Assembly (NCBI GenBank): GCA_037355855.1
Contig: CM074759.1
Coordinates: forward strand, 5,518,001 to 5,582,000
DNA from: Pseudo-nitzschia pungens
Taxonomy: Eukaryota > Bacillariophyta > Bacillariophyceae > Bacillariales > Bacillariaceae
Direction: 5' to 3'
Length of the DNA stretch: 64,000 nt
Under the pieces are notes generated by a model, which worked only from the letters and a program-made list of their open reading frames with translations, had not been told where the DNA came from and searched no databases. Positions 3,449 through 62,887 of this stretch are shown here, in pieces (within the stretch, counting starts at the first letter, position 1; each line of letters starts with the position of its first letter). Both the position numbers and the translations under genes were made by a program.

Positions 3449-4529
3449 CCATGGCCAAGCAAAACCAGAATCATCGCTGAAGCGATTCTGAGTATGAAGA
3501 GGAGCAAGCGGCCCCTGCGGTACAGGGACAGAAGCGGAAGCTTAGACCATGGGGGCTTACCAAGCAAACGCCAAAGTCAACGCATTAGATGGCAGGACCT
3601 AGGATGCATGCGGAGGATGATTTTTTACTATCCAACCACGCAACTCAGACCGACACTGCCATGACTATGGTTGTCAGGCAACTCCAAGTTCTACAGGAAC
3701 GAATGGGCAAGAACTTTGGTTCTTTGAAGAACAAGGAGGCTCTTATTGCTACCATTAGATATGGTATCCAGTAACACCGAAGGAATTGAAGATTGCGACG
3801 TTCGCAATTAGATGGATCCGGAAGGATTGAAGGCTGAAAAGGCCTGTATGTTTTGCAAGTATTGTATTTTGCAAAAAGTATCCCTGAAACCACCAGTAAT
3901 CCTCAACAAGAAGCCCATCTTTGCTCGTGACAGAAGACAATGTGTCATCGGTAGTGCCCCGAAACGACTGATCTACGAGAAAGACTGCCTTACGAGCGAA
4001 CGCCCAGCCCAGAAACCCTAGGAAATTCCCTGAAGGAATTGCTCAGCGAAGAATTGCTCAGCACCAAATCCTTTATTCACACCGGGGACAATATGTTATA
4101 TATCTTGTCCCTGCACTGAAAGAGTTCGATCAATTGCTGTATTCCGGAACGAGGAATCGATAGCCAAATCCATAGCAACCGGATCGATAGCAACGGATCG
4201 ATAGCAACGCATCGATAGCAGCAGACGCTAGACGCGAAGATTCGCAGCAGACGCTAGACGCAGCGTTGACCGATTGATGTTTGTGCCTGTCCTTGCGGCG
4301 AAAGAGCAGTAGCAGCAACAAAAGGACAACATCGATGCCCTGACAGGAGAGAAGCCTACAGCAGCTAAAAAAGGATTGGCGGGAGCAAGGGAACAAGCGC
4401 CAGCACGGGTCCGCAGCGCATTGTTAGTAGACAGGGCGCATTGAACTGAAGACGATCCAACGTAAGGAGCGATGTGACGTCACAGCGCTCATGACTTACT
4501 TAAAAAAGGATAGAGGATACATAATGGTA
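3449..4529 (+). pseudogene. Copia A gag-region remnant
   Basis: Starts with the same ATGGCCAAGCAAA as the intact gag (58451 on the minus strand), but the following sequence shows stops within ten codons and little resemblance to the intact 662-aa gag. Short frames such as 3589-3774 (with KNFGSLKNKEALIATIR) may be gag relics or foreign sequence. From about 4140 to 4270 there are short tandem repeats: four GGATCGATAGCAAC-like units and two GCAGCAGACGCTAGACGC units. The segment ends where the 2.1-kb retroposon is inserted. Confidence 0.4.
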
Positions 4530-5073
4530 CAATTTGCGCGAAGCGCATTTTGTCCGACGTTTCCGATGTTTCCAGTACTAAAAATACGTAGATTTCTACA
4601 CAACTTTACCATGCGATATCTCGCTCCCTTATACACCCCCAATCACAACCCCAGGACCTACATGTATTAACCAAGACCTGCGCTCTTCGTTTCTGCTTAT
4701 CGGTTCAGTTGCTGGATGCTTCGTTTGGTTGGCTTTGGTTGCCAATTCACACTCGGCGGCCGATCGAGCAGCAGCAGCAGCAGCAAACCGACACATAATT
4801 TTCTACAGCACTTCCAGTACAGATTCTACCGTACAGCAAAACCGACAACAAACGTTGTATTTCTGCTTCGATCTGTTTCCCAGCTCCATTCCAAGGCCCT
4901 TAAGTATATCTTATACTTAATGTTCTACACTGTTTCCAAGCTGCTTAAGTGATTCTCACTTAATGTTTCTACATTCTTCGAAGTTCCTTGCTGAGTCCTC
5001 TTAAGTCTTTTCAAGTCGAAGTTCACGAACAGCCCCTTCCACTGTAGGAATCTTTTTTTCTAAAAGAAATTCT

Positions 5074-5920
5074 GTCATCTGTTTTCAAGTCCATTGCCCT
5101 GCTGGAACCCTAAGTGTTTTCACTTATGGTCCTACTGTTTCTTGACCCAAGCCCCAAAGCCGCTAAGTACAGTTTGCTTAAGGCTCCACCACCTACATAA
5201 CCCTCTCAGGCGTACTGTATTATATTAAATGTCATCTGTTTCCAAGTCTACTGCCCTGATGGACCCTAAGTGTTTTCGCTTATGGTCCTACTGTTTCCTG
5301 ACCCAAGCCCTAAAGCCACTAAGTACAGCTTGCTTAAGGCTCCCTACCTACATATACCTCTCAGATGCACACTTCAACTGTCATCTGTTTTCAAGTCTAC
5401 TGCCCTGCTGGATCCATAAGTGTTTTCGCACTTAAGGTCCTACTATTTCCTGACCCAAGCCCCAAAGCCGCTAAGTACAGCTTGCTTAAGGCTCTCCTAC
5501 CTACATATACCCTCTCAGATGCACACTTCAACTGTCATCTGTTTTCAAGTCTACTGCCCTGATAGTCCATAATAAGTGTTTTTATGGGGGTATGGACTAC
5601 TTTTTTTATACTGCCAAGCCCCAAAGCTGCTAAGTACATGTTACTTAACGCACCACCACCTACATATACCCTCTCAGATCACACTTCACACTGTCAGAGA
5701 CCTGTTTTCAAGCCTACTGCCCTGATAGTCCATAATTGTTTTTGATTATGGACCTACTGTTTTATGACCCCAAGCCCCAAAGCTGCTAAGTACATGTTAC
5801 TTAACGCACCACCACTACATATACCCCTCCAGTTCACAGTACAGCAGAGACCTGTTTTCAAGCCTACAGCCCTGATGGTCCATAAGTGTTTTCACTTAGA
5901 GCCCTGTCCAAGCTACTACA
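5074..5920 (+). repeat. Tandem ~150-bp hairpin repeats, copy 1
   Basis: Six head-to-tail units, each starting near GTCATCTGTTTTCAAG at about 5074, 5231, 5380, 5534, 5693 and 5838 (spacing 145-159 bp). Each unit contains a short inverted repeat. Examples are CCATAAGTG...CACTTATGG-type arms around a TTTT loop and CCATAAT...ATTATGG. Both arms change together in some units. Each also has the CTAAGTACAGCTTGCTTAAG-like block. Seven comparable units are present in copy 2. Confidence 0.8.
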
Positions 5921-6478
5921 GGAGAGCCAAGTTCAAGTTCGAACAGAAGGCCAGCTGTTACGAATTTGAATTTGGTAGTAGGCTCCACCGCCTCTACGTG
6001 TTTCCGGCTATACTAAGTTCGAACAGGAGGACAGCTGTTTCTGAATTTGGTAGTAGGCTCTGTACTTTATGTACCATACAGTGGTAAGGAATGTGGTTCG
6101 GGATGTGTTTGGGGATGACTACTCGCATTACTGGTGATGCTGCAATCCAGCATTCAGAGAGGAGTTTTGCTTTTGTACGCTGACCACTAGCATTACAGAT
6201 ACCATGTATCTAGTCAGGGTTTTGCTTGTGTCAGCTGACCACTAGCATTACGGATGCTGCACACCAGCATTGGAGGGACAGTTTTGCTTGTGTCTTTCCC
6301 TTTCACGTTCTTGTTACCCCGTTTCCTGTACGCTTTGCAACAGCAGTGTCTGTTGTGCTCTGGACTGGTTCGTTTTTTTTTTTCCTGTTTCTTACCAAGG
6401 TTCGTTTTTTTTTTTTTTTTTTTTTTGCAAAATAGCCGTCCTTACAACCTGGGCCTATTCCCCATGGTTGAGGCGGCG

Positions 6479-6611
6479 CGTCGTTCTACAACTTGGGGCC
6501 TAACCTCTCTTCGATTGAGGCGACGATAAAGTCTGGTTACAGACTGAGTAGCTTTTAACCACCTTCGGTGGATTTTCCTACTTAAATAAGTATATTATTA
6601 TTATTATTATT
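6479..6611 (+). other. Structured 3' tail shared with LINE
   Basis: Contains three short self-complementary stretches. They are AGTCTggttacAGACT at 6530-6545, CCACCttcGGTGG at 6559-6571 and TACTTAAATAAGTA at 6579-6592, followed by the TTA repeat. The corresponding positions of the LINE at 62807-62848 carry an identical first hairpin and TCACCtttGGTGA for the second, where the outer C:G pair is replaced by T:A. This is the likely recognition site for the mobilising reverse transcriptase (inference from how LINE/SINE pairs share tails). Confidence 0.7.
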
Positions 6612-7615
6612 ATAGAGGATACATAATGGTAGACATGAAAATGACTGATACGGAGATATGACCAAAGGCATGTGTGCCTAGTACACAGCGGACATGTGTA
6701 AAGCACGGTCAGAATGCTATGAGCGAGAGCAACGACGCTCGTTGATAGACCTGCTACGATGTACTCTGTTAGGCGTGTATCGCGGTCGATCCGTCTCAGC
6801 ATTGGTGTATCGAAATGGATGTACCAGCAGCAAGATCAGCAAGGCTGAAAGAGAGCAACTGCGATCAGCAAGGCCGAAAGAGAGCAACTGCGAGTTGGAT
6901 AGCCATGCAGACACGACAGCTGCTGGTTGCAACATGATTTTCTTATTGGAAGACCAAGTTACCTCCCATGCGGATGTTCATTAAACCAGTGAAGAATATT
7001 CCTATCCGAACGTGTATTACTGTTTATACGGATCCATTGGGAAAAGTTGGTTGATTGATTTCCATGAGGCTTTATATTTCGGGGACAGGCTACAGCACAG
7101 CCTGATATGTCCCAACCACATTAGGGATTGTGGCCACAACCGTGTGGATGAGACGTCGAGACAGTTTGATTCCAAGTCATCTAGCATACTGCTGAAGATG
7201 GAGATGAAGAGGTCCCGACACTAGATATTAAGCTCCTGCTTAATGGTGTTGTTTCCTTACTTCTTCCCTCCAGGCGCACCACGAAAGAAGAAATGCGGAC
7301 GTGTGATCATGTAATTGCTACAAGGGATGCCCCCTGGAATCCAGCAAGCACAAAATTGAGCAAGCTGAATTAGCAATTGTGGACGTGTGACCATGCGGTT
7401 GCTACAAGGGGACGCATCCTGGAACCCATCACACCCCAATTCACCTGACCCAACACCGTTTTGTTTCTGCCCTACACCAGCAATAGCAGCAACAACAGGA
7501 CCAAGGGTAATACCCCGACAGGCAATGTGCCTACAGCAGGAATCGGACAGTCACGCTGACATGATCCTGATTGAAGACCAAGACTATTCCTATTGGAACC
7601 TGTGTTACAGCCTAC

Positions 7616-10442: not shown

Positions 10443-10942
10443 NNNNNNNNNNNNNNNNNNNNNNNNNNNNNNNNNNNNNNNNNNNNNNNNNNNNNNNNNN
10501 NNNNNNNNNNNNNNNNNNNNNNNNNNNNNNNNNNNNNNNNNNNNNNNNNNNNNNNNNNNNNNNNNNNNNNNNNNNNNNNNNNNNNNNNNNNNNNNNNNNN
10601 NNNNNNNNNNNNNNNNNNNNNNNNNNNNNNNNNNNNNNNNNNNNNNNNNNNNNNNNNNNNNNNNNNNNNNNNNNNNNNNNNNNNNNNNNNNNNNNNNNNN
10701 NNNNNNNNNNNNNNNNNNNNNNNNNNNNNNNNNNNNNNNNNNNNNNNNNNNNNNNNNNNNNNNNNNNNNNNNNNNNNNNNNNNNNNNNNNNNNNNNNNNN
10801 NNNNNNNNNNNNNNNNNNNNNNNNNNNNNNNNNNNNNNNNNNNNNNNNNNNNNNNNNNNNNNNNNNNNNNNNNNNNNNNNNNNNNNNNNNNNNNNNNNNN
10901 NNNNNNNNNNNNNNNNNNNNNNNNNNNNNNNNNNNNNNNNNN
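10443..10942. other. Assembly gap (500 N)
   Basis: Exactly 500 unknown bases, probably a scaffold gap of nominal length. It hides the 5' part of the gene ending at 12001 and any 3' end of the decayed Copia A. Any reading frame drawn across it is meaningless. Confidence 0.99.
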
Positions 10943-12001
10943 TCTATCAGCGGAAGTGATACACGGTCAAACGCAGATACTGCAGGGCAAACGGCCGATT
11001 CGAGTGTTGGAAGTTCGAAGGGACTCAAGAGACAGGAATATAGAGCCATCGTTGAAGATTTAGTACAGAGAGTAGTACCGGAAGAGATCGAGAACGTTGA
11101 TGAGATGATGCTTCAGTTTCGTGGTCGTGAGGATGAGTTGGTTGAGACTCTCCGAGCTATGCAAGAACGAGCCGTAGCGCAAAAGGCACGAAACAACTCA
11201 CAAAGAGCTGCAAAGCAACAAGCCAAACTAACCTCAGCCGCGACGAAAGCAGAGGCAGAAAGTAGCGTTCCCCCAAAATCAAGTAAGAGCATTGGCACGG
11301 GCCAAGTATCAGCTGCCATGGCGACAGCAAAAAGTTTGGGAACGGGAGAAATCGGGAGTTCAAAGAATAAAAAGGAACACAGAAAAGAGCCACTCGGAGA
11401 CAAAGAGGGAAAAGTTACAGCTAAGGAGACCCAGAGTGCTCTTGAAGCGGCGATCGAGGCTGGAGATTGGGACGCCGTTGGAGAAGCCGCAGCGTTACTC
11501 ACTGATAGCAATAGTCTTGAATCAGCTGACACCGATGAAATCAATAAGTATGCAGATGGAGTTTCAACCGATGGGTCTTCTGCTGCTGGATCTAAAAACC
11601 TGGCAGATGTTGCAGATGAGCTTGAAGAATTAATAGAAGCAGGAGATTGGAAAGGTGTTGTGCAAGCAGCGTCTACGAAGGGGGCGAAAATGGAAAAGAA
11701 ACCGGAAAGTACCGAGACACGAAGGATGCGTCGTTTGAAGCATTTGCAAGAAGAACAGGAGGCACTCGCTCAAGCAGAGATATGGTCTGCGATTGCGGAG
11801 CAATCAAAACAGGAGTCAGAAAGAACACATCAAGGGGCTGCGGATGCAGCTGATTGGGCAATATCGAGAAGCTTGAACGCCCTTGTTGAAGCCGAGCTAG
11901 CCGGTATCAACGATCAATCGACTGTTGGCACCGATGGGGACTCTTTACAGCAAAGCACGGCAAAGGGTGAGGATGACACTGAAGGTGGAAATGAGGTATA
12001 A
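10943..12001 (+). CDS. Coiled-coil protein with AGDW repeats, 3' part
   Basis: An open frame of about 352 residues from the gap edge to TAA. The start lies in or beyond the gap. The visible part begins Ser-rich, then has a charged helical stretch (EDLVQRVVPEEIENVDEMML, then ELVETLRAMQERAVAQKARN) typical of a coiled coil. Next come two SxGTG motifs (SIGTGQ, SLGTGE) and a KNKKEHRK basic patch. Two clear copies of an IEAGDW module follow (LEAAIEAGDWDAVGEAAALL and LEELIEAGDWKGVVQAAS). A third degenerate one (AEIWSAIAEQ) lies near the C-terminus, after a basic TRRMRRLKHLQEEQEALAQA helix. I recall AGDWxAV-type repeats in diatom proteins, but no function is known to me. No transposon motif is present and the frame is clean, so I read it as a host gene. 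Confidence 0.7.
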   Translation, partial: SISGSDTRSNADTAGQTADSSVGSSKGLKRQEYRAIVEDLVQRVVPEEIENVDEMMLQFRGREDELVETLRAMQERAVAQKARNNSQRAAKQQAKLTSAATKAEAESSVPPKSSKSIGTGQVSAAMATAKSLGTGEIGSSKNKKEHRKEPLGDKEGKVTAKETQSALEAAIEAGDWDAVGEAAALLTDSNSLESADTDEINKYADGVSTDGSSAAGSKNLADVADELEELIEAGDWKGVVQAASTKGAKMEKKPESTETRRMRRLKHLQEEQEALAQAEIWSAIAEQSKQESERTHQGAADAADWAISRSLNALVEAELAGINDQSTVGTDGDSLQQSTAKGEDDTEGGNEV

Positions 12002-12844
12002 CAATGATATTCCCCAAGTTGGACCTCTTCGTTGATTCCTTTGGAAGGCATTTCTTGGAGAAGTCGCTCTCAGATCCATGTCCAACTTGTTTACTTTTGT
12101 AGCTGTAGAGGGTTACAATAACGCTTTTGTATAACTAGTATCGATAAGGATATTTTATCTTCCTATTGTACAAGCTGGTACAAAGTCGCACGACAAAGAC
12201 AAACAGTGTGCAAAAAAGCATTGATGCTAAATCAGGAGGTCAATGTCAAATAGAATGCTTCTTCTCGTCATGAATGCTGGTGATGCAAAAAGTTGGTCTT
12301 TTGAAACTAAAATGAGTGCACAGATGATGGTGAAAGTTGTGGTGACTCACGTCCCTTTTGTGATAAGGATCTTGAAATTGACCAGTATTATTTTTTGTGA
12401 TAAGGATCTTGAAATTGACCACTATTATTTCGACAATGCGATGGCATGTATAAAATGAAAGCACCTTGTCCATCACCTGTAGAGGGTCTCTGATGTTCTT
12501 CCACCAAGTCCATTCTTGTCAAATCACTATTATTGTCTGAGAGAATCATAGCTGACTTGAAAAAGGCATGATGCAGGTTGAATCCAACAAGGCCTGCTTG
12601 TGCTTGGTTGTTGGAGGCATTTTTGGCCTTTTACTTCTGTCTTATCTGTATCACAGTAGATAACATTGACTGGCAAAAAGTTACCCTTGTTGTACTGCCT
12701 CCTCCAATAACTCGGAAATGACTCCTAAATTCCAATGTTGTACAGCTGGATATGTTATTCCCTCTGTGAATATATTCAACAGTGCTATACAGGGTGCTGA
12801 AGAGGATGTTGGGTCCCAAAGTATGGATCTGTACCAGAGCTACA
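12002..12844. other. Downstream flank of the AGDW gene
   Basis: No convincing gene. It contains a 37-bp tandem duplication (next entry). Weak resemblance to Gypsy internal sequence begins only near 12845. Confidence 0.5.
12359..12432 (+). repeat. 37-bp direct tandem duplication
   Basis: Two adjacent units beginning TGTGATAAGGATCTTG, at 12359 and 12396, differing at one or two bases. A simple recent duplication in non-coding DNA. Confidence 0.8.
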
Positions 12845-16828: not shown

Positions 16829-19477
16829 ATGTCCGAAAATGCCGTAAACATGGAGGATTGCTCCACAGAGAGCCCAGATGGTACTCAAGAGACCCAAGAC
16901 AGCAGCGAAAGCCGTCCTGCTAATAGCCCAAGGCTCCAGGACCTCAGCAAGCTTGTGAAGAGAGCTCAAAAATTCCAGGATGGCTATGACAGTGATGGGG
17001 CAAAAGGCCCCTTTTTTGATGCAATAATTGCTGAGGGAGATCAATACAAGGAAGCAGGAGGAGAAGACTACAATATTGGAGACGCCGAACCACCAAACAG
17101 AGCAGCGGACGCAGCAGCAGAAGCGGACGCTGCAGCAGAAGCGGACGCAGCAGCAGAAGTGGTGGTGGTGGAAGAAAATATCGATTTACAAACCAAAACA
17201 GTGACATGGATCAAGGAAGAGCTGAAGCTCAGATGCCAATCAACATCTGGAAAGAAGACTGATCTTGTCGACCGGTTGAAGAAGGCAATAGACCGGAAGG
17301 AACGTCGATTCAATACGCTGGAGGAAGCAAGAGCAAGCAAGAAGCCACGGATCGGACGCCCCACCACGACAGCAGCAGCAACAAAGAACAACAACAAGAA
17401 CTCGTCGGCGATGCTGCGTCTGTTCCCTGATACTGTGTACTGGCGAGTCCTCCACCCAGACGCCACAGCGGTCACTGAACCAGCGAATCCATCCTTTACA
17501 ATTGCAAGGGCTCCAACTGTGCCAGAAGTTGATGCAAGGGTTGCTCCCCCCCCAAAGAAGTACAACTATGCAGAGCTCTTTGATATTCCTGTGTTCAAGG
17601 GAGTTTGTACAACCTACGAGTTCGATCGCCGCGGCAAGTTGCGGAGGGACGCTGATGGCAAGCCACTCACTAACAGTGCTCCCAGGGAGGAAGGCTGCGT
17701 CGATCCAGGATTCAAGGAGAAGTACGGTCTATCTGCTGCTGAGTCGCTACCATGGGACTTTGCTGAGGTATTCCTTCCGCTAAGCAACGATGCAAAGGAC
17801 AGTAATCACTTCAGCTTTGAGAAAATTCGGCAGTGGACAAACCTCAAGGCGTCACTTGCAGGAGCTGGAGAGCAGGTGTACCAGGACTTCAAGCCATTTG
17901 AATTGACGGAGCTGCGCCGGTTCTTTGGACTTTATGTACTGCATGGACTTGCTCCTACGGCTCGTGTTGAATACAAGCTTCGCTCTACGAGGAATGACAG
18001 ACTTGCAGGGAATGATTTCATCTACAACGGCTTGTGTAAGAGTTCAAGGAATCCACAGCGCCGCCACAAACACTTCAAGGCGTTTCTTTCTTGCCAAGAT
18101 CCTCGTAAGGAAGTTCCTTCTCGTAGGACGTTTCCAAATTGGAAGATACGACCTTTAATCCAGTGGATTAACTGGCGTTCCCCCCAGGCTTGGATGTTGG
18201 CTCGTCAAATTGCGGTGGATGAAATGACCATGCGGTTCAAAGGTGTCCACCAAGACAAGCGACGGATCACGTACAAGAAGGAAGGTGACGGATTTCAAGC
18301 TGATGCCCTCTGCGATGATGGATACTGCTACCAAGTCTACATGAGGAATGATCCTGCACCTAAAAAGTACTTGAACTGGAAGCTCTCTCCGCTGCATGCC
18401 CGTACGATGGCCCTATTTGATTCCTTGAAGGACGAGCACCACCATGTGGGAATGGACAACCTGTACAACTCAGTACTATTCTGCAAGGCGGCGTTTCTGC
18501 ATTCAAAGCGAGTCCTTTGTCATGGAGTTGCCCGTAAGGCAAATCGTGGCATCCCTGATTGCGTCTTTCAACAAGAGCTCAAGAATATCCGCGAAGAGCG
18601 AGCTGCCCGTGGTACTGTGAAGGCTGCTGTTCTTGAAGGGGATCCCGCCTGTTCCTTTCTTATTGCTTCTAGTGTCTACGACACCAAGCCAGTACACTAC
18701 TTGAGTATGGTCACTAGTAAGATTGAATGGGTGGAGAAGCAGAAGATTGTCTACAACGTGGATACCGATTCGAAAGAAAAGCTGAAATTCCTCCGTCTTA
18801 ATCAGTTAGATACATACAACAATGGTATGGGCGACGTCGATATTGCTGATCAGCTCCGCGGTGTGTACAGATTGGACCGCTGGGTACGTAACAGGAAGTG
18901 GTGGTGGTCTGTTATGTTTTGGGGTGTAGGAGTACTCCTTACAAATGCCTACAAGCTGTACCTGAAGGTCTGTAAAGAAGAAGGAGTGACGCCCAGATTT
19001 GCATCCCAGTATGACTTCAGGAGAGCAGTTGGAGAGTACTGGGTAGACCCTGAGACTGTTTCATGTGAAGCTGAAGCCAGGATGTTTCATGTTTCATCCT
19101 GTGGTGCTGAACAAGATGGTCCTGTATCGCCTTTGACTGAACCTTCAAGCAATTCCTCGTTCGACAGTAAGAAGAATTCAGCTAGAGTAACTGACAAGAC
19201 GCTTGCAGACAATGGTGCTCTGAGTTGTAGGTTGGACAAGAATTTGGATCACTATCCTTCTAAAGCAGTGAGGAACACCAAATGTGCTTTGCATGGTTGG
19301 CTTGGACTAAGAAAAGAGGGGGAGTTAATGAGATGTGTAACATGCAATGTCCATCTTTGCATTGATTGCTATGGAACATTTCATCGGTCGGGCGATATCC
19401 TGGCTCTAAAGAAAAGGATGAAGCGCGGCTTGGAAGAAAAAGCAGCAAGAAGTAGAAAGAAGCTGAAGATGAAGTAG
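16829..19477 (+). CDS. piggyBac transposase with SAP domain
   Basis: 882 residues, no stops or frameshifts. It cuts and pastes the element at TTAA. Layout: an acidic, Ser-rich N-terminus with an AAEAD repeat at about residues 92-112; a SAP-type DNA-binding motif at about 123-155 (TWIKEELKLRCQ, then TDLVDRLKKAI); a basic NKNS-rich linker. The catalytic domain (DDE_Tnp_1_7 type) has Asp464 in AVDEMTMRFKG, Asp543 in GMDNLYNS, and Asp671/Asp674 in GDVDIADQL, matching the piggyBac D-D-D(D) pattern. The C-terminus holds a Cys/His-rich motif at about 818-852 (CALHGW, then CVTCNVHLCIDCYGTFH) and a basic tail RSRKKLKMK, probably zinc-binding and nuclear-localising. It is longer than the founding insect enzyme (about 594 residues) because of the N-terminal extension. 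All key residues being present suggests recent activity. Confidence 0.9.
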   Translation: MSENAVNMEDCSTESPDGTQETQDSSESRPANSPRLQDLSKLVKRAQKFQDGYDSDGAKGPFFDAIIAEGDQYKEAGGEDYNIGDAEPPNRAADAAAEADAAAEADAAAEVVVVEENIDLQTKTVTWIKEELKLRCQSTSGKKTDLVDRLKKAIDRKERRFNTLEEARASKKPRIGRPTTTAAATKNNNKNSSAMLRLFPDTVYWRVLHPDATAVTEPANPSFTIARAPTVPEVDARVAPPPKKYNYAELFDIPVFKGVCTTYEFDRRGKLRRDADGKPLTNSAPREEGCVDPGFKEKYGLSAAESLPWDFAEVFLPLSNDAKDSNHFSFEKIRQWTNLKASLAGAGEQVYQDFKPFELTELRRFFGLYVLHGLAPTARVEYKLRSTRNDRLAGNDFIYNGLCKSSRNPQRRHKHFKAFLSCQDPRKEVPSRRTFPNWKIRPLIQWINWRSPQAWMLARQIAVDEMTMRFKGVHQDKRRITYKKEGDGFQADALCDDGYCYQVYMRNDPAPKKYLNWKLSPLHARTMALFDSLKDEHHHVGMDNLYNSVLFCKAAFLHSKRVLCHGVARKANRGIPDCVFQQELKNIREERAARGTVKAAVLEGDPACSFLIASSVYDTKPVHYLSMVTSKIEWVEKQKIVYNVDTDSKEKLKFLRLNQLDTYNNGMGDVDIADQLRGVYRLDRWVRNRKWWWSVMFWGVGVLLTNAYKLYLKVCKEEGVTPRFASQYDFRRAVGEYWVDPETVSCEAEARMFHVSSCGAEQDGPVSPLTEPSSNSSFDSKKNSARVTDKTLADNGALSCRLDKNLDHYPSKAVRNTKCALHGWLGLRKEGELMRCVTCNVHLCIDCYGTFHRSGDILALKKRMKRGLEEKAARSRKKLKMK

Positions 19478-39745: not shown

Positions 39746-40318
39746 ATGGGCAAAACCAAACAGAAATCCATCAAGTTAGACGTACCTACCTTCAGTGTGG
39801 ACAGTGAAGATGGGTTTGCAAGTTGGTGGGCTTACTTGAGAGCATATGCAGCTCAGAAGGACTTCATCGAAGTCCTGAAGGAAGACCGGCACAAGACATG
39901 CCAGATCAAGAGGATGAGGATGCCGGTACCAAGCATACTGAAGACCAAAAGGCGGCAATACTGAAGAACAGACTAGCAGTGTCGGCAATGCAGATTGCGT
40001 TCGCAAAGGGCGAGATGATCAGTTGCTTGGCAATGGTTCATGCATCGGTCACGAAGGAATGGCCAATAGGACAAGTGCACCTGATTGTGCAAGATCTTTT
40101 TGCAGAATATCGGGGAGATCTGGCAACAGCATTGTTTGATCAACGCAGGGAAATGGCTCAACTTACCATGAAGGATTAAGAAAATCCGAGAGACTTCTTT
40201 GCAAGATTGGCTAAGATCGAGTTGAAGTATGCAGACAGAACCCAAGGAATCACAGATGAGGGTTGAAGTATGCAGACAGAACCCAAGGAATCACAGATGA
40301 GGAGAAGTTAGTGTTAAT

Positions 40319-42433
40319 AATAATATACTTATTTAAGTAGGAAAATCCACCGAAGGTGGTTAAAAGCTACTCAGTCTGTAACCAGACTTTATCGTCGCCT
40401 CAATCGAAGAGAGGTTAGGCCCCAAGTTGTAGAACGACGCGCCGCCTCAACCATGGGGAATAGGCCCCAGGTTGTAAGGACGGCTATTTTGCAAACGAAC
40501 CTTGGTAAGAAACAGGAAAAAAACGAACCAGTCCAGAGCACAACAGACACTGCTGTTGCAAAGCGTACAGGAAACGGGGTAACAAGAACGTGAAAGGGAA
40601 AGACACAAGCAAAACTGTCCCTCCAATGCTGGTGTGCAGCATCCGTAATGCTAGTGGTCAGCTGACACAAGCAAAACCCTGACTAGATACATGGTATCTG
40701 TAATGCTAGTGGTCAGCGTACAAAAGCAAAACTCCTCTCTGAATGCTGGATTGCAGCATCACCAGTAATGCGAGTAGTCATCCCCAAACACATTCCCGTA
40801 ACCACTGTATGGTACATATAGTACGGAGCCTACTACCAAATTCGTAACAGCTGTCCTTCTGTTCGAACTTCGTAGTAGGAGACACGTAGAGGAAACACGT
40901 AGAGGCGGTGGAGCCTACTACCAAATTCAAATTCGTAACAGCTGGCCTTCTGTTCGAACTTGAACTTGCTCTCCTGTAGTAGCTTGGAAACAGGGCCTTT
41001 AAGTGAAAACACTTATGGACCATCAGGGCTGTAGGCTTGAAAACAGGTCTCTGCTGTACTGTGAACTGGAGGGGTATATGTTGGTGGTGGTGCGTTAAGT
41101 AACATGTACTTAGCAGCTTTGGGGCTTGGGTCATAAAAACAGTAGGTCCATAATCAAAAACAATTATGGACTATCAGGGCAGTAGACTTGAAAACAGATG
41201 ACAGTTGAAGTGTGCATCTGAGAGGGTTATGTAGGTAGGAGAGCCTTAAGCAAGCTGTACTTAGCGGCTTTGGGGCTTGGGTCAGGAAATAGTAGGACCT
41301 TAAGTGAGAACACTTATGGTCCAGCAGGGCAGTAGACTTGAAAACAGATGACAGTTGAAGTGTGCATCTGAGAGGTATATGTAGGTAGGAGAGCCTTAAG
41401 CAAGCTGTACTTAGCGGCTTTGGGGCTTGGGTAAGGAAACAGTAGGACCATAAGCGAAAACACTTATGGTCCATCAGGGCACTAGACTTGAAAACAGATG
41501 ACAGTTGAAGAATGCATCTGAGAGGTATATGTAGGTAGGGGAGCCTTAAGCAAACTGTACTTAGTGGCTTTAGGGCTTGGGTCAGGAAACAGTAGGACCA
41601 TAAGCGAAAACACTTAGGGTCCATCAGGGCAGTAGACTTGGAAACAGATGACATTTATACAGTACACCTGAGAGGGTTATGTAGGTGGTGGATCCTTAAG
41701 CAAACTGTACTTAGCGGCTTTGGGGCTTGGGTCAAGAAACAGTAGGACCATAAGTGAAAACACTTAGGGTCCAGCAGGGCAGTAGACTTGGAAACAGATG
41801 ACATTTATACTGTACACCTGAGAGGTATATGTAGATGGTAGAGCCTTAAGTGAACTGTACTTAGCGGCTTTTGGGCTTGGGTCAGAAAACATTAGGACCA
41901 TAAGCGAAAACACTTATGTACCAGCAGGGCATTAGACTTGGAAACAGATGGCATCTGGAATTTCGTGTAGAAATATTCCTACAGTGGAAGAACTTTAAGT
42001 GAGAATCACTTAAGCAGCTTGGAAACAGTGTAGAACATTAAGTATAGCAAGATATACGTAAGGGCCTTGGTTGGAGCTTGGGAACAGATCGAAGCAGTAC
42101 CGTACATCGAAAAAGAGTGGTGAATTGCTGTAGAATCTGTACTGGAAGTGCTGTAGAAAATTATGTGTCGATCTTGGTTTTGGTGCTGCTGCTGTTGCTG
42201 ATCCCTCGGTCGAGCAGTGAATTGGCAACAAACTCAACGAAAGGAAGCATCCAGCAACTGAACCGATAGCAGAAACGAAGAGCGCAGGTCTTGGTTAATA
42301 CATGTAGGTCCTGGGGTTGTGATTGGGGGTGTATAAGGGAGCGAGATATCGCATGGTAAAGTTGTGTAGAAATCTACGTATTTTTAGTACTGGAACATCG
42401 GAACGTCGGACAAAATGCGCGTCGCGCAAATTG
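40319..42433 (-). mobile_element. 2.1-kb non-coding retroposon, copy 2
   Basis: Minus-strand copy of the element at 4530-6611, starting CAATTTGCGCG at 42433 and ending in (TTA)n (read as TAATAATAATA at 40319). It is flanked by a perfect 21-bp duplication (40298-40318 and 42434-42454, beginning TGAGGAGAAGTTAGTG) derived from Copia B gag. It has about seven ~150-bp repeat units against six in copy 1. Its homopolymers are short (A7 where copy 1 has T12; none where copy 1 has T22). Minus-strand frames of up to 166 codons run through the tandem repeats; they repeat with the array and differ between copies, so I do not call a protein. Confidence 0.85.
40990..41960 (-). repeat. Tandem ~150-bp hairpin repeats, copy 2
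   Basis: Units marked by GAAAACAGATGACAGTTGAAG or variants at about 41040, 41192, 41342, 41494, 41642, 41791 and 41941. Each contains CACTTATGG or a variant with its complement CCATAAG, and GCCTTAAGCAAGCTGTACTT. Confidence 0.8.
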
Positions 42434-44072
42434 TGAGGAGAAGTTAGTGTTAATCTACACAAAAGCGCCAGACTTGTACCAACAAATGTTGATCCGAAAG
42501 CAAGAAGAAGCACGCAAGGACAACAATGGAGCGCCACAAGTTTGGGAAATAAAGCAGGCAATGATAACACTTTGGAAAGCATTAAATGAGAGGAACAAGA
42601 GTAAAGCGCACGTGGAATACAGTCTCACGACAAACGAGTATGACTATGATGGCAACAAGATGGGACAGAATAATTCCCAGAAGAAATCTGGAGACCACTG
42701 TCAGAAGAAATGTTATCACTGTGGAAAGCCCGGACACATCAAGAGAGATTGTCCCAAGCTAAAGAAGTGTGGCCACTGTGGAAAGAAAGGACACTCGGAA
42801 ACAAACTGTTGCGAGAAATACCCAGAAAAGAAACCGAAGTGGATGAAAGGGAAACAGACCAACGAAATAGTGATTGGATTTGAACTGGCCCTAGCAAGAA
42901 TTGATCAGTGTGTACTGTGCAAAGAATACCATGGTCAAGAGGAAACAGCAGAAGACGTTGCTGAACTTGCAGCATCAGCAGAAATGAATGGACACTCTAA
43001 CAGAGCTAATAGGAATAAAACCAAGCAATCAAAAAGAAAGAATAAGAAACCAGTACAAAATGTACAGGGAAAGTACGGCAAGGATGGAAAATCAAATGGC
43101 GCGAGAAGAAATAATCGTGGAAACAAGCAAGTGAACGGCAATAATCAAGCACAAAGAAAGAAGACACACACAAACAAATCCTGTCAAGGATGTTGTCCAA
43201 GACCTAAGCACACCAGGAATGCTTGTGGGATTACCAGGCCTGCGCATAAGAAACAAATCAAATTGAACCGGAAGGGTTGGTATATTGCACCACTACATAC
43301 TTATAACCGACCAATGCTGGGACAAGTGCGAGCAGTCACTGAAGTACTGGATCACAACGGACAGTTGAAAGGGTGGAGTATGAAATTAAAGGCAGTACCA
43401 ATGGGGACTGACAGCGATATGCTTATATCCATGCCTCAATATATACATGTCGCGGAACAATTGGAGTCACACACATGCAGGATGTATGCAATCTGGGATT
43501 GGACTGACAGATGCGAACAATGCGCGCAAGACAGTTGGGTAATTGAAGGACAACGGACATGCGGAAACGGGAACCACGAGGATGACGGACATGTAGAGTA
43601 CGCAATACTGAACACCGGAGTCAACTCGGTTCCTACGGCAAACTTGGCGTCAGAATCACTATACTCACCTTATATATGGATCGCAGATACAGGAGCATCT
43701 TGTCACATCACGAATAGTCAGGTAGGCTCGGTTTCCTTCTAAGAACGCTAACGCACGACTAAAGACTGCAAATCACTCCATGGATGCAAGCGGAAACAAG
43801 ATGCAAGCAGTAGCAATAGTAGATATACCAGGAATCATACGGGGACCAAAGGGAACTACCACATTAATTTGGATGACCGACTGCAGATATGGTGGATCTA
43901 AATTTAATCTTTGCTCCATAACCAAACTAACTGACAATGGTTGGACCATGACAGGAGACAAAACCGGGATACACCTTTACAAAGGAAAACAAACACTACA
44001 TTTTGACGTACCAATTCACTTGAAGGAAGGGAGACTATGGGCTGTGCGAATCAACCAGAGGAGTGACCATGG

Positions 44073-50435: not shown

Positions 50436-51334
50436 TGTTGATATTCGCTCGTCAGCGATCTTCGGGGACGACTCGTAGATGTATCTCGTACTGGTCTGTA
50501 AATAAGGAAAAGCCTTAACAATAATAATACATAAAGTCCTGGCAAATCGTGAGTCTACAGTGGACTGTTCAAGGTCTATTGCATACGCTCAAGCAATACA
50601 AAGCACTTCCCTAGAGGTACATCGGAATCGGTCGTAAAGGAGGGCATGATAGGTTTCTATTTTAGAGTGTAAAAGAAAGAGTGAAAAGGAGCTGAGCCAA
50701 AGCGCTCAGCTCTGTATCGTGACATCGATTCGCTAACTCGCTAATAACAGAGCTTCTGTAGCTCTGGTACTGTATCCTACGAGTAGCGTACCGTATCGGA
50801 GTATCGTAGGTATCTCCGATTAATTAGATCGAAACGTGTGCTAGCGCGTTGGGTAACTGTCTGGGCCGGGCATCCAGTCATGGTACATATTACACACCAA
50901 TGACCTGGCCCCGGCGGTAGCACGGTATCTTAGCATGGTACCATGGTATGCTAGCATCTTTCAGTATCTCGCAGCCTTAGCAACCCTAACCCTGTAGCAT
51001 TTAGCTACACCACGACAGGAGGTGCTTTACTCGGGGTACGTACGATTGGTACAAATCGTACGCGGCGACCCTAGTAAACTTTGCTAGCAATACTAGACAG
51101 GATAGGTCTGCTGCTAAGCCTGTTGCTAAGCCTGTTGCTAAGCCTGTTGCTAAGCCTGTTGCTAAGCCTGTTGCTAAGCCTGTTGCTAAGGATGTATGCT
51201 ACCAATTAGCACACACCTCAGCACTCAGCTCAGCACTTGGTAGTCAGCTACTGGAGGTTGCTGACTGTAGCCCCAGTACACTCTCCTACACAGGAGCCTT
51301 AGCACAGATCATAGCACCACCTTGAATATCTTCA
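50436..51334 (-). repeat. 3' LTR of Copia A
   Basis: TGTTGATATTC...GAATATCTTCA on the plus strand. It contains six to seven copies of a 12-bp unit (GTTGCTAAGCCT) at about 51112-51190 and several palindromes (GGTACGTACGATTGGTACAA near 51036). Confidence 0.9.
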
Positions 51335-51902: not shown

Positions 51903-54900
51903 TTACCACATGCATCGGGCACAGTGTTCTTTCAAAGCTGGACCATTCAATAGCTTGGTGAATAAGTCGGCAATATTGGTCTCACCAGGCTCCTTTGCAA
52001 TTCGAATTGTTCCAGCAGCAATAGACTCGCGCGCCTTGTGGTATGCGACGCTGTTGTGCTTCTTGTTGCAAGGGCTCTCTGGTCTGGTAGTATTTTTGAC
52101 AACAGACTCGTTATCACAGTACACATTCGTAGGACCTTCAATAGGAACGCCCATCATCCGGAGCTTGTACCTGAGCCCTTCAATCAGTTCAATGGCAATT
52201 CGGAGTGCCACTATTTCAGAACCAAAGGTTGACGTCTCGACAGTGGTCTGGCGTTTGCTGAACCACAGGATAGGGGCTCTGTTTACAAAGATGATAATCC
52301 CGGTATGGGACCTTCTTGTTGCTTTGCATCCGGCATGATCCGCATCGACAAAACAACTCATAATAACTGCTTTTCCAAGAGGTTCAGGAGCATCCGGTGG
52401 CAATACTTCCTTGGCATCAGGATAAAACTCGCTCCAGTCGCAGTTGGGGAATCTGGACTCATCCACTTCAGGCCGGGTCTCATCAAACACCAACTTGGAT
52501 CGGGCATGCGCCTTGAGATAGGCAAACATGTGCAATACTTGGTTCAAATGCCCTGTTCTTGCTTGCGCAAGATACCTAGACATAAGGGATACAGGCATGA
52601 CCAAATCCAGTCTCCCAAGTTCGCACAACCACCTCAATACACCAATCAGGCCCTGGTAGTAGTTCTGCTTACTTGGATCCAGTTCGGCGGTTACATCAAC
52701 TTCTGGACGATAATCGGATGTCAACGGGGTAGACACCTTGTTCGGAAGGTACTTGTAACCATACTGCTCAGTGCCAAGCTCCTTCTCTACTGCGTCGATG
52801 GCTTTCTTGGCATATTTCTCGGAGGACATCGCCCACTTGGGAATTGGATCGTCTTCGACCACGTGCAGATTGACATCAGCGCCCAGATACAAGGTTGGAA
52901 CTTCTATAGTCCCGTCCTTCAGCGTGAAGCGCTGTTCGATACTTTCCAACTGTCGTCGAGGGTCCTCGCTGCAACAGATAATATCGTCGACGTATGCAAT
53001 CAGGTAGGCCCAGTACCTAGAGCCGTCCTTTCGTGTCTCCACTCGCATATGAACGTCAGGATCAGCCTTACAGGGTTGGTATCCTAGCGTTCGTAGGTGC
53101 TTGGTCAAATAGGATCGGAACGACGCGCCTGCAACAGGAAGTCCATACAGCGCTCGAACGATCTTACATACCTGTCCTACCAAATGCGGGGGAAAACCAT
53201 CTTCAGCTCGTGCAACCAAATAATACTTCTTCTTGATCGGCGCTGTAAGGTAGGCATTCTGGATGTCCGCAGACAGTACGTCCAAATTGTTCAGGGCTGC
53301 CAACAGGAAGAAGATACGGACTGAATCCCTGCTAGGTACACTGCTGAAGGTATGTTCCTTAGCTGTTGCTTGTACCTTATGGCCATCGGCGACGAGCCGT
53401 GCTTTCCGCGTCAGGGACCCCAACTTCACATCAAAGATCATGTGCGTCGTGATCTTACTGAATCCTTCGGCCTTGAGACCTTCGACGGTGTAGCTGGAGT
53501 CAAACTCGAACGCCATCTCGTTGTTTCTCATCTCCTTCGCAATCGCCTTCTCCCAATAGTCCGTTCCCGTCTTTCGGTCGATGGCAAGAGCTTCAGGGAT
53601 AGAATGTGGTAGCTCCACTCCGAACTTGTGCGTCCGATCCCAGTACTTGTTTCGCTTGGTGGCTTTGAGGATTCGCTTCTTCCTTCGTAGTACATGGTGA
53701 ATCCACCATCGAAATGCTGGCTGATCCGAGATCTTGGCGGATATGGCGTACTCTGCGGTCTGCACAGGAAAGGACTCTTTCAGATCGCTCAACTTACACC
53801 AGGATTCGGTTCCGTCTTTCCAACTGACGAGCAATCGCCATCCCTTCGTTGTAGGCCTTGGGACTTTGCGACCATACTTGTTGGTGATCGTCGCATCTTG
53901 CTTCCTAACGGCAGATCCGTCCTTCTCGTGGTCGATAATCTCGTCCAGTAGAGAGAACATTCGTCCGTCGTCATCGATCTCGCTGTACATGCTCTCAGCA
54001 ACGATATTGGCGGTGTACTGCTCGATGGAACCATCTGGAAACTGCAGATCATACATTCTGGTATCAAGGATAGGGTTATCATTCCTCTTACCAATCGGAT
54101 TGCCATTAAGATCAGCAGAACGATTCTTCACAACACACCGTAGTCGTTCGTCGCCCTTCTGGATCATGACATTATTACCAATATACTCATCATAGTCATC
54201 CCCATCAGGTATGAGGTCGTCGATGTCTGGGATGGAAGCTTCAGGCTCGGCGAGCTCCCACCTTTCTTGGTGACCCTCAAATAACTCAGCAGGGGGATCA
54301 GGGTACGTAGCTTGGAACTTTGCGTCGTTATCCTCAACCTTGTCCCCGATCTTGGATTCCACTGCTTGGTCAAATGAGTCCATATAGCGCTTGACGTCAT
54401 GGGAACGCCATTCTTCTTCAGTAACAGCACGGACTGTGTTAGTGCTTACCGGCATGGCCGCCTCGTTCAGGATCCAGTGGCAGTCTCCGCCTCCGAATCG
54501 GTCACCGCACGGGCCAAGCCATCGTCCCAGCTTCTCGGTCCCATCAGAGAGATCAACCCAATAGACGAAATCATACCATTCATGGGCTTGGTACAGAGAT
54601 ATGTCAGGCATGTACCCATGTACAATTTCGAACGGCGTTCGACCCATCATCGTAGGATCACTGGAAGCAGTGCGCTGTCGGATGGCAGCAACGAGCTCTC
54701 CGCAGAAAGCCCACAGGCGCTTGGGGGATCGCTTCCGGGCCGTCTTCTTACGTATACTTCTGCTGATATGGCCGATGCTGAGCTCCGCGCGATTCTGGAA
54801 GGGACATCTTGGCTGGATGAAAGTCTGGTGGATATGGTTTTTGCTGACGACCTTATTCCATGGAGTCTTGTAAGTACCAGGGGCGCCTTGCTCTCGAGCG

Positions 54901-56420: not shown

Positions 56421-56462
56421 CAGCCGGCCAACCTTACTTAATTTCGGGCACCGGCCGTCGTT

Positions 56463-59406: not shown

Positions 59407-60305
59407 TGTTGATATTCGCTCGTCAGCGATCTTCGGGGACGACTCGTAGATGTATCTCGTACTGGTCTGTAAATAAGGAAAAGCCTTAACAATAATAATA
59501 CATAAAGTCCTGGCAAATCGTGAGTCTACAGTGGACTGTTCAAGGTCTATTGCATACGCTCAAGCAATACAAAGCACTTCCCTAGAGGTACATCGGAATC
59601 GGTCGTAAAGGAGGGCATGATAGGTTTCTATTTTAGAGTGTAAAAGAAAGAGTGAAAAGGAGCTGAGCCAAAGCGCTCAGCTCTGTATCGTGACATCGAT
59701 TCGCTAACTCGCTAATAACAGAGCTTCTGTAGCTCTGGTACTGTATCCTACGAGTAGCGTACCGTATCGGAGTATCGTAGGTATCTCCGATTAATTAGAT
59801 CGAAACGTGTGCTAGCGCGTTGGGTAACTGTCTGGGCCGGGCATCCAGTCATGGTACATATTACACACCAATGACCTGGCCCCGGCGGTAGCACGGTATC
59901 TTAGCATGGTACCATGGTATGCTAGCATCTTTCAGTATCTCGCAGCCTTAGCAACCCTAACCCTGTAGCATTTAGCTACACCACGACAGGAGGTGCTTTA
60001 CTCGGGGTACGTACGATTGGTACAAATCGTACGCGGCGACCCTAGTAAACTTTGCTAGCAATACTAGACAGGATAGGTCTGCTGCTAAGCCTGTTGCTAA
60101 GCCTGTTGCTAAGCCTGTTGCTAAGCCTGTTGCTAAGCCTGTTGCTAAGCCTGTTGCTAAGGATGTATGCTACCAATTAGCACACACCTCAGCACTCAGC
60201 TCAGCACTTGGTAGTCAGCTACTGGAGGTTGCTGACTGTAGCCCCAGTACACTCTCCTACACAGGAGCCTTAGCACAGATCATAGCACCACCTTGAATAT
60301 CTTCA
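59407..60305 (-). repeat. 5' LTR of Copia A
   Basis: Indistinguishable by eye from 50436-51334, including the number of 12-bp units (about 60083-60161). It should contain the promoter and start site of the element; none can be pinpointed. Confidence 0.9.
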
Positions 60306-60864: not shown

Positions 60865-61664
60865 TGCACGGCAAGTCCATACTTCTTCCGGCCGCTCTTC
60901 TTAAACATCTGGCATGTGTGGCAGTGTTTGCAGAGGTCCTGGATGTCCTTCCGTAGGCTTTTCCAGGTGAATACTGATCGAATGCTCTGTTCCATTCTCT
61001 TTTCTCCGGGATGGACCAGCATGCTGTGGTACCATTCCATGACTCTTTCCTTGAGTGTGTCGGGAATCAGAATCTTCCCTTCTTTGTGGATCAGACTGTA
61101 ACCTTCCACATTTTTGGTGGTCAGCTGGTTGCCTTTTTCCAAAGCACTCATGATTTCCGTGTCCTTTTGTTGGTAGAACTGGATCATATCCGGGGCAAGT
61201 GGGAATGCACTATTGCCCTGGAATTCTTCCGGCGCTTCTTCTCCAAGTGGGAATAGGAGTTGCCGGAGGTGCTCTTCCTCATCCGCGTAGGTGAGGGGCT
61301 TATTTGGTGGTAGCCATTCCACTGTGTCTGCTGGGTCATCTGTGATGTCCAGTCGGGACAGAGCATCTGCTGCGTCATTGTCTTTGCCAGCAACATGCTT
61401 GACTACTGGGTGGAACTCCTCCATGAGAAGGCGCCACCGGACCATCCTTTGGGTGGGCATCTGCTGATACAGTAGATTAAGGTGGTCTGTGTGAATAATC
61501 ACATCTTGGCCTCGTAGGATTCCTTCGAACGCTTTTAGTCCTTCCACTATTCCAAGGAGTTCTTTTTCTCCTACAGTGTAATTGAGTTGCGCTGAATTCA
61601 GTTTCCTTGTGTAGAATCCCAGGGGTTTGCAAGTGCTCAAGGTTTGATCAAAATGCTTTGCATG
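60865..61664 (-). pseudogene. Gypsy C RNase H and integrase zinc domain
   Basis: KPLGFYTRKLNSAQLNYTVG, EKELLGIVEGLKAF, VIIHTDHLNLLYQQ and RWRLLMEEFHPVVKHVAGKD are RNase H motifs, the last leading into NDAADALSRLD. The integrase HHCC domain is MEWYHSMLVHPGEKR with CKHCHTCQMFKKSG. The frame then jumps to AVHRNTVTSLL, out of integrase, because the core is deleted. The short frame upstream, at 61665-61727, is LINE sequence read backwards. Confidence 0.8.
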
Positions 61665-61679
61665 TTGCCATTTCTGGTC

Positions 61680-62581
61680 CTCCCCTTCTTCAATATTGGC
61701 AGACCCACCATGATATTCCCATTCCACAACCTGTTTTGGGTTCCATCCATTGGTGTGCTCATCTGTCTGCCTTCAAGCGATTACCTCCTGGCATGCAAAG
61801 GTGGTTTGTCAAGTTTGCTTCTGGATGCATTGGTGTTGGCAACCAACTACTTCACTACCAGTATCAGGATCACTCCAGGTGCCCATTGTGTGATGCAGAC
61901 AATGAGAAGGTGTCTCATGTGCTCTCCTGCAAGGACACTGGAGCAGTACAGCACAGTGTGTCAGCTTTCAAGGGACCACTGCAGAAGAGGCTTGAAGTTG
62001 AACAAACTGATCCATCATTGGTTGTTGCCATTGTGGATCTTCTCACCAGAGTTCGGAAGGGCCAGAACATTTATCCATCATCCTACTCACTTGCAATTGC
62101 GTCTGCTGTCAGGGCACAGAGGACTATTGGCTGGCACAACTGGCTTCTGGGTAGGTGGTCTCCTCGCTGGTATCAAATTCAGGCTGACTACTACTCCCAC
62201 ATTGGAAGCAAGCGCTCTCCCAAACGTTGGGCTACAGCTATCATCCATCAGTTCTTTCTTACCTCCTGGGATCTTTGGACCTACAGAAATGAACGACTCC
62301 ATGGTCCTGGGGGTACCCTGGATGCTGAACAACACCAATCTCTTGATGCTTCCATCACCTCAGAATTGGCAATTGGTGCAGCTGGTGCACTTCCCCAGTC
62401 ACACTCCCTGTTACAAACCCCTTTCCACGTCCTACAAGGTTACACCCTGACTGCCAAGCGGCAGTGGCTTGCAACCATCCACCTTGCAAGGAAGCAATAT
62501 GCAGCGCCTGTCCCACCAGTGCAGCCATACCAACAAGAGGCTGCTCTTCTCAGAGCCTGGCTTACTGGACCTCAGGGTTGA
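61680..62581 (+). CDS. LINE ORF C-terminal domain (partial)
   Basis: About 300 residues, open to TGA at 62579-62581. It begins within the region after reverse transcriptase (YWQTHHDIPIPQPVLGSIHW), then LPPGMQRWFVKFASGCIGVG, and a zinc-finger-like CPLCDADNEKVSHVLSC (C-x2-C...H-x3-C). A conserved tail follows: GWHNWLLGRWSPRWYQIQ, WDLWTYRNERLHGPGG and RQWLATIHLARKQYA. This tail is one I recognise as following the reverse transcriptase in stramenopile LINEs. It probably contacts RNA or DNA during insertion. The Met at 61607 is in Gypsy DNA and not a real start. Confidence 0.75.
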
Positions 62582-62757
62582 TTACACTTTGTACCTTGGT
62601 TTTGTCTTCTGTTCCTGCTTCTCATCCTGTCCCATCCCCTTTGATACTGGCTCTTATCCCAATATCCACATTCCCATCTCACTTTCTCTCAAGTCCCTAG
62701 TTTGTGGGACTTGTTTGTCTTTTTCCCTGCTTGATGTTCAAGGTTTGTTTGAAAATT

Positions 62758-62880
62758 TGTCGTTCTGCCACTTGGGGTCCTGACTCTATGATGGAGGCGA
62801 CGTTAAAGTCTGGTTACAGACTGAGTAATTTAGTTTCACCTTTGGTGATTAAAGTTATTTAAATACGTATATTATTATTA
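62758..62880 (+). other. LINE 3' tail with hairpins
   Basis: AGTCTggttacAGACT at 62807-62822, TCACCtttGGTGA at 62836-62848, TATTTAAATA just after, then (ATT)n. Shared in order and structure with 6479-6611 and 40319-40450. Confidence 0.75.
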
Positions 62881-62887
62881 TTGCCAT

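Follow-up and report, generated by a model that had tools for sequence, protein, structure and literature searches.

A long non-coding retroelement of the diatom Pseudo-nitzschia pungens, probably an internally deleted derivative of a LINE

Our analysis of a 64,000-nucleotide stretch of the Pseudo-nitzschia pungens genome (contig CM074759.1, positions 5,518,001 to 5,582,000; hereafter the window) and of the genome around it indicates that two non-coding retroelement copies in the window (el1 and el2, Table 1) belong to a family that probably arose from a LINE by internal deletion. We read the element as a non-autonomous long SIDE, of the SIDE/NARTc kind, that would be moved in trans by the LINE endonuclease and reverse transcriptase (EN/RT) through its 3' tail, and we put the probability of this reading at about 85% because a LINE in the same genome has the same head, a related leader and a related 128-bp tail followed by (TTA)n. 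The first-pass annotation had described a large non-coding retroposon, had known of no named family of this design in diatoms and had named an intact reverse transcriptase (RT) ORF within the same boundaries as evidence against its reading. A design without a coding relative is not supported: a LINE exists with a homologous head, a homologous tail and an open 1971-aa EN/RT frame, so that such an RT frame does lie within the same boundaries, in a diverged relative of the element rather than in an identical parent.

Boundaries, copies and age of the element

Table 1. Coordinates of the two element copies and their parts in the window
Feature	Position	Strand	Basis
Element copy el1 (type A), head to (TTA)n	4529..6611	+	head pattern, duplication, sequence comparison
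el1 5' target site duplication, 20 bp	4510..4529	+	
el1 3' target site duplication, 20 bp	6612..6631	+	
el1 head block common to LINE (73/76 aligned nt, measured on el2 head)	4529..4604	+	
el1 tandem array, ~150-bp units, two predicted hairpins each	5079..5893	+	
el1 3' tail homologous to LINE 3' tail (78-79%), three stems, then (TTA)n	6480..6606	+	
Element copy el2 (type B), six full units	40319..42434	-	
el2 5' target site duplication, 21 bp	42434..42454	-	
el2 3' target site duplication, 21 bp	40298..40318	-	
el2 tandem array, period 150, 6.3 copies	41000..41950	-	
el2 3' tail homologous to LINE tail	40319..40438	-	

Both copies lie where the first-pass annotation had placed them and share an exact 5' end: a head pattern allowed up to three mismatches has two matches in the window, each without a mismatch, and none in 100 shuffles of the window. 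Both also end in (TTA)n and are enclosed by perfect duplications (ATAGAGGATACATAATGGTA around el1, ATTAACACTAACTTCTCCTCA around el2). An A precedes the motif CAATTTG at 13 of 14 clean sites across the genome (copy L034 is without it) and falls outside the duplication at eight of those 13, for which reason this A is most likely the first base of the element, at 4529 in el1 and 42434 in el2. The claim that the element has no convincing ORF also holds, since no ATG frame exceeds 107 aa in el1 or 166 aa in el2; the latter is the longest among the four element copies examined, and an EN/RT ORF is absent from them. That the hosts of the two copies are Copia elements gains support on the el2 side alone, where the adjoining ORF (42447-43742) contains a zinc knuckle.

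Elsewhere in the window, tandem arrays at 50916-51190 recur 8971 bases away at 59887-60161, forming two pairs, each with one shared consensus (21 bp; 12 bp, CTGTTGCTAAGC), and flank Copia-type ORFs (51903-58451) as LTRs would. An 882-aa ORF at 16829-19477 has a DDE_Tnp_1_7 domain, which we take to be of the PiggyBac type, and a SAP match below cut-off.

Across the 66.9 Mb and 28 contigs of the genome, the head pattern was found 367 times with up to two mismatches and the element-type tail 343 times with up to three, with no match to either in controls. On contig C1 and the first 4.65 Mb of contig C2, 38 of 47 exact heads have a same-strand exact tail within 6 kb, at 1660-3234 bp end to end (35 of the 38 at 1660-2202 bp). 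The nine heads with no exact tail listed within 6 kb, sampled ~0.9-1.1 kb downstream, led into element body in three cases, into LINE interior in four (three in the opposite orientation, one in the same) and into unmatched sequence in two (E 1e-8). Of the 100 exact tails listed, no more than 38 pair with an exact head; the rest belong to copies with mismatched heads, 5'-truncated copies or nested copies, and the heads of type C copies are one base off the head pattern. Element-type tail ends at L098 (C1:1364022) and L108 (C1:5229081) are preceded by sequence unlike the element and may represent either short truncated copies or further non-autonomous families with a common tail. Among the matches listed, exact heads and tails on C1 are crowded between 3.36 and 8.10 Mb, with none before or after, perhaps reflecting heterochromatin or a centromere.

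The eight best full-length matches (L001-L008, where L001 is el1 and L002 the same site) all have perfect duplications of 18-20 bp, that of L005 ending 4 bp before the head. Among 30 tail loci, two of which are the window copies, a wider check covered the 17 with a 90-base flank around an exact head, and 14 of the 17 have a perfect 16-21 bp duplication ending no more than 2 bp from the head. Copy L031 lies within a 12-bp repeat that makes its duplication ambiguous, and no duplication was found for L030, one of the 17 loci. Duplications were seen by eye at the type C copies L010 and L016, and L012 is an altered copy without a head. At L008 (C5:4493039-4498074), an element with a 19-bp duplication sits inside another of the same family, an instance of nested activity. 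The first-pass annotation had expected a fixed 5' end, target duplications and a variable number of units across the genome, and this is what the copies display, with five full 150-bp units in the copies of types A, C and D examined and six in type B.

These types (A, el1 and L002-L008; B, el2; C, L010 and L016; D, a copy inside a LINE) are ~6-11% apart with gaps ignored and define at least four subfamilies. Copies L002-L008 are 99.2-99.9% alike, which indicates a recent burst and bears out the earlier claim of active retrotransposition as far as recent activity is concerned. The site of el1 is found on two contigs (C2:5522520 for el1, C8:2486178 for L002) with the same duplication and near-identical flanks, which over ~1 kb per side differ by 1 and 2 mismatches and 56 and 18 gap letters. 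The host sequence was most simply copied after insertion, in which case el1 is not a unique fresh insertion. Aligned together with their flanks over 4612 positions, the two copies show 40 mismatches and 73 gap openings, mostly small gaps within the element, and these differences are probably assembly noise rather than evolution.

An RNA route is suggested by copy L013, a chimera in which an element is followed by ~350 bases of the 3' flank of copy L024, its likely source, and then by a second element tail and (TTA)n. The second tail is 94% like that of L024, which sits ~7 kb away on the opposite strand, and the junction falls at a GCAA common to both templates. On the simplest reading, a read-through transcript of L024 that started at the head would have undergone a template switch during reverse transcription. 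An 18-bp duplication seen by eye, TTGTTTCATTGGAATCTT, encloses the whole chimera, around the second tail, and therefore DNA rearrangement is the less likely origin. Template jumps have been reported for R2, in descriptions of the R2 SIDEs and R2/R1 hybrid SIDEs of Drosophila (PMC3414825).

A LINE with related ends

The lead to a LINE came from a genome search with PF03372, whose weakest of 12 matches (E 9e-4, under cut-off) lies in a 1971-aa frame; PF14529 has no match in the genome. A generic LINE RT consensus gave weak matches (E 0.017-0.38; 150 of 352 candidates listed), many of which fall in frames of ~1971 aa, and this frame is open in the LINE copies L074 and L075. The L074 protein matches RVT_1 at 44.8 bits, above the cut-off of 29.6, and scores below the Pfam cut-offs for the endonuclease (19.4 against 24.5) and zf-RVT (17.5 against 27.5). 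The LINE is not evident among the best 150 of 1225 candidates of an RVT_1 search, nearly all of which are matches of ~160 residues that we take from their length to be Gypsy. The same set includes one intron-type RT beside cox1, and at C2:7143000-7152900 (L039/L069) in that long contig a cox1-like fragment lies beside a 760-aa ORF with an RT domain, presumably of the intron type, the stretch being either a nuclear mitochondrial insertion or a misassembly. Among 72 public RT relatives of the LINE, the closest is 69% identical and the single named eukaryotic one, from Cylindrotheca closterium, which we take to be a diatom, is 36% identical.

At the 3' end, the element tail and the final 128 bp of the LINE (read in L074) in front of (TTA)n are 78-79% alike. 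LINE-type tails occur 587 times in the genome with up to three mismatches (control, 0), and a core common to both tail types at 984 sites with up to one mismatch; each of 20 core sites outside the listed exact matches is nearer to one or the other type. The window itself holds a LINE 3' fragment (61627..62882, + strand) that is 97.3% identical to lineB 10863-12119 and ends in the LINE tail and (TTA)n. A clean duplication was found for none of three LINE copies: L074 has a 16-bp repeat off the boundary, L075 has none and the window fragment has none at its boundary.

At the 5' end, sequence L128, which lies upstream of a LINE copy on contig C11, has 51 11-mers in common with the element, where 200 shuffles average 0.9 and peak at 6. 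The LINE start, ACAATTTTGCGACGCGCGATTTTGTCCGACGTTCCGATGTTCCAGTACT..., falls in L129, the 600 bases that precede L128, and corresponds to ACAATTTGCGCGACGCGCATTTTGTCCGACGTTCCGATGTTCCAGTACT... in the element. The alignment of the leader formed by L129 from base 164 and L128 with the element opens at the first base of each and extends to about element base 1247, with 852 identities, 233 mismatches and 294 gap letters, and its score of 593 compares with at most 130 in 50 shuffles. Head identity reaches 96% and the leader is ~78% alike overall. Element bases 1400-1880 score 46-75 against the LINE stretches read, from which part of the leader is absent, and 20 shuffles against one stretch score up to 68. 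The LINE head was read in the C11 copy only (L129), whose RT match lies in an open 1971-aa frame, and the 5' boundary of the LINE is accordingly provisional, being confirmed neither by another copy nor by a target duplication.

The position of this leader in the genome agrees with a LINE origin. L128 has 40 main matches among 81 (best 40 of 365 candidates scored), and for 17 of the 40 an RT match from the 150 listed follows within 12 kb, always on the same strand; the spacing is 6.3-7.6 kb in 14 of these and 6548-6553 bases in six. With the RT matches limited to those 150, the other 23 are uninformative. Three leader matches on C1, at 2725547 (+), 4489962 (-) and 4210228 (-), each have, further along their own strand, an RT match in an open 1971-aa frame and then an exact LINE tail. 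Assuming that the sequence ahead of L128 is like that of the C11 copy, simple arithmetic gives the LINE a span of ~10.8 kb at 2725547 and 4489962. Variable tandem repeats unlike the element units occur upstream of ORF2 in L126, L127 and L096:3287-3921 (periods ~116-152 bp in L096), and LINE length therefore probably varies between copies. Because the tail is 78-79% and the leader ~78% alike, the LINE sampled here is probably a diverged relative of the element rather than its direct parent, and a closer LINE may exist or have become extinct.

Predicted RNA structure at the ends and in the array

The first 25 nt of types A, B and C and of the LINE fold into the same 11/3/11 hairpin with two U-U mismatches, and only 0-2 of 500 shuffles fold as well. 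In an ungapped comparison, four of its nine pairs have changed on both sides between element and LINE and still pair; MAFFT places one insertion and one deletion in the hairpin, so that the count of compensating changes depends on the alignment. In the tail stems, 98.3% of cells are paired across 22 distinct rows, and four pairs, comprising 22 cells, have changed on both sides. The tail covariation score of 0.155 exceeds the shuffled mean of 0.099 and was reached by none of 500 shuffles, the measure of further pair types does not stand above shuffles (458 of 500), and most of the changes follow a single split between LINE-type and element-type tails. Since the 5' hairpin and the tail stems remain paired between LINE and element despite these changes, they are probably retained cis signals.

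The element body also folds better than its shuffles (z -4.96 for bases 1-995, 20 shuffles; z -5.9 for the rest, 12 shuffles). Covariation in the array unit is modest, with five cells in two of 21 pairs changed on both sides, and paired cells number 380 of 398, where shuffles average 372.6 and none of 500 reached that count. For the LINE leader L128, folding is not clearly stronger than in shuffles (z -0.76; four of 20 shuffles fold as well). A search for a ribozyme at the 5' end gave no Rfam match near threshold (best E 0.32 and 0.16).

We picture the element as having retained the 5' end of the LINE, with its head hairpin and hairpin-rich leader, and the 3' tail, with its stem-loops and TTA repeats, while ORF1 and ORF2 would have been lost. 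An internal promoter in the head or leader would start the transcript at ACAATTTG, the LINE EN/RT protein would recognise the tail stem-loops and, judging from the products, would nick DNA and copy the RNA by target-primed reverse transcription (TPRT). The outcome is the 16-21 bp duplications described above. That this particular LINE serves in trans, and any role of the array, we infer from sequence. The element array is regular, its five or six hairpin units each spanning 150 bp, which is not so in the single LINE leader that was read. It is conceivable, though doubtful, that the array was rebuilt from an irregular leader after the ORFs were lost and acts as a phased RNA scaffold that helps the transcript compete for LINE protein, the element being a 2-kb structured RNA parasite selected for its fold and flanked by two co-varying terminal signals.

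Alternative origins and related elements

The origin of the element body decides between an internally deleted LINE and a composite of the SVA/LAVA type, in which a LINE tail would have been acquired by host-derived sequence of unrelated origin that contains a central tandem array. SVA and LAVA are similar in size to this element, which is non-coding, ~2 kb long and flanked by target duplications, with a central tandem array and a copy resembling 3' transduction (L013), and 480 bp of its body are unmatched in the LINE pieces compared. Nevertheless, the head and array region align with the LINE's own leader, and matches to that leader are found ahead of LINE RT frames in the same orientation, which argues against an unrelated origin of the body; unrelated sequences fused around a VNTR are not what we find. 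We favoured the composite until the LINE leader proved homologous, and alignment and leader position have since largely refuted it, such that we now regard it as very improbable. The same homology could have arisen in reverse, the LINE lineage having taken its leader, and with it a promoter, from a pre-existing non-coding element. The regular element array beside the irregularity of the one LINE leader read, the existence of at least four element subfamilies and the LINE copy with an element inserted in ORF1, which attests that contact occurs, would all fit such a capture. However, both ends of the element match the ends of the LINE, as internal deletion predicts, and capture needs more steps (an argument from parsimony, made without a tree), and so we consider it unlikely.

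That inserted copy, in L075/L096, is of type D and stands upstream of most of ORF1. We rejected the reading that it is the LINE's own 5' UTR, as it has its own 17-bp duplication, seen by eye, inside ORF1. An ordinary SINE with a Pol III promoter would likewise carry a LINE-type 3' tail and target duplications, as tailed SINEs do. Yet the window contains no tRNA gene, no Rfam match approaches a family threshold (the best E values being those given for the ribozyme search), two of three copies checked have no box-B match and the third has no box A upstream of its box B, and the three copies contain 22-25 runs of at least four T. With no small-RNA 5' part found either, we rejected this origin, which is scarcely credible.

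The internally deleted LINE derivative thus preferred belongs to a known kind, the SIDE, and is unusually long and structured: its 5' and 3' ends are homologous to those of a LINE, it has no EN/RT ORF, it shows the products of TPRT and a partner with an open RT frame is present. R2 SIDEs are likewise described as joined 5' and 3' ends of a non-LTR element, non-autonomous and spread by TPRT, and differ in having a 5' ribozyme and fixed sites in rRNA genes (PMC3414825), whereas the present element is ~2 kb long, with a tandem hairpin array, many different sites and no Rfam match. The trypanosomatid pairs NARTc/L1Tc and RIME/ingi are reported to share a short 5' block between autonomous and non-autonomous members after loss of the coding part (PMC4035085, PMC4748587, PMC8190864), Pr77 in that case and a 76-nt head in ours. 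Pr77 is reported as a promoter and ribozyme, roles that are at most putative for our head, and the portions of the NARTc and RIME descriptions available to us mention no 150-bp array (PMC4035085). The Persaeus/Zenon (CR1) SIDE of Lepidoptera is portrayed as an internally deleted LINE derivative that burst alongside its partner; unlike our element it is CR1-derived and from insects, and the likeness is one of general description (PMC6740152). The same source describes LINE-derived SIDEs as rare (PMC6740152). SVA and LAVA are described as non-autonomous, with a central tandem array and mobilised in trans by a LINE, the last of which we infer for our element, and differ in joining unrelated sequences, whereas the ends and array region here match the LINE (PMC4432496). 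Finally, a 3' stem-loop is common to LINE and element, as reported for LINEs with stringent tails and their followers, where binding by the ORF2 protein has been shown; for our element such binding would be expected by analogy (PMC4176376, PMC3747384).

We found no report of such an element in diatoms in the literature searched, which leaves out most subscription papers; the terms SINE, LINE and non-LTR are absent from the main text of one diatom paper (PMC8147415), and the annotation of Phaeodactylum tricornutum, in the portion available, gives 13 putative SINE copies amounting to 1,454 bp (PMC5859163). One genome now offers for study both an abundant non-autonomous element with recent activity and the LINE that is its likely partner, with both ends of each read, and the RNA signals common to them come down to a 25-nt 5' hairpin and a ~130-nt 3' tail. 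Trans-mobilisation, the position of the promoter and recognition of the 3' stem-loop thereby become directly testable, and in a diatom the element fills a gap beside the SINE annotation of P. tricornutum.
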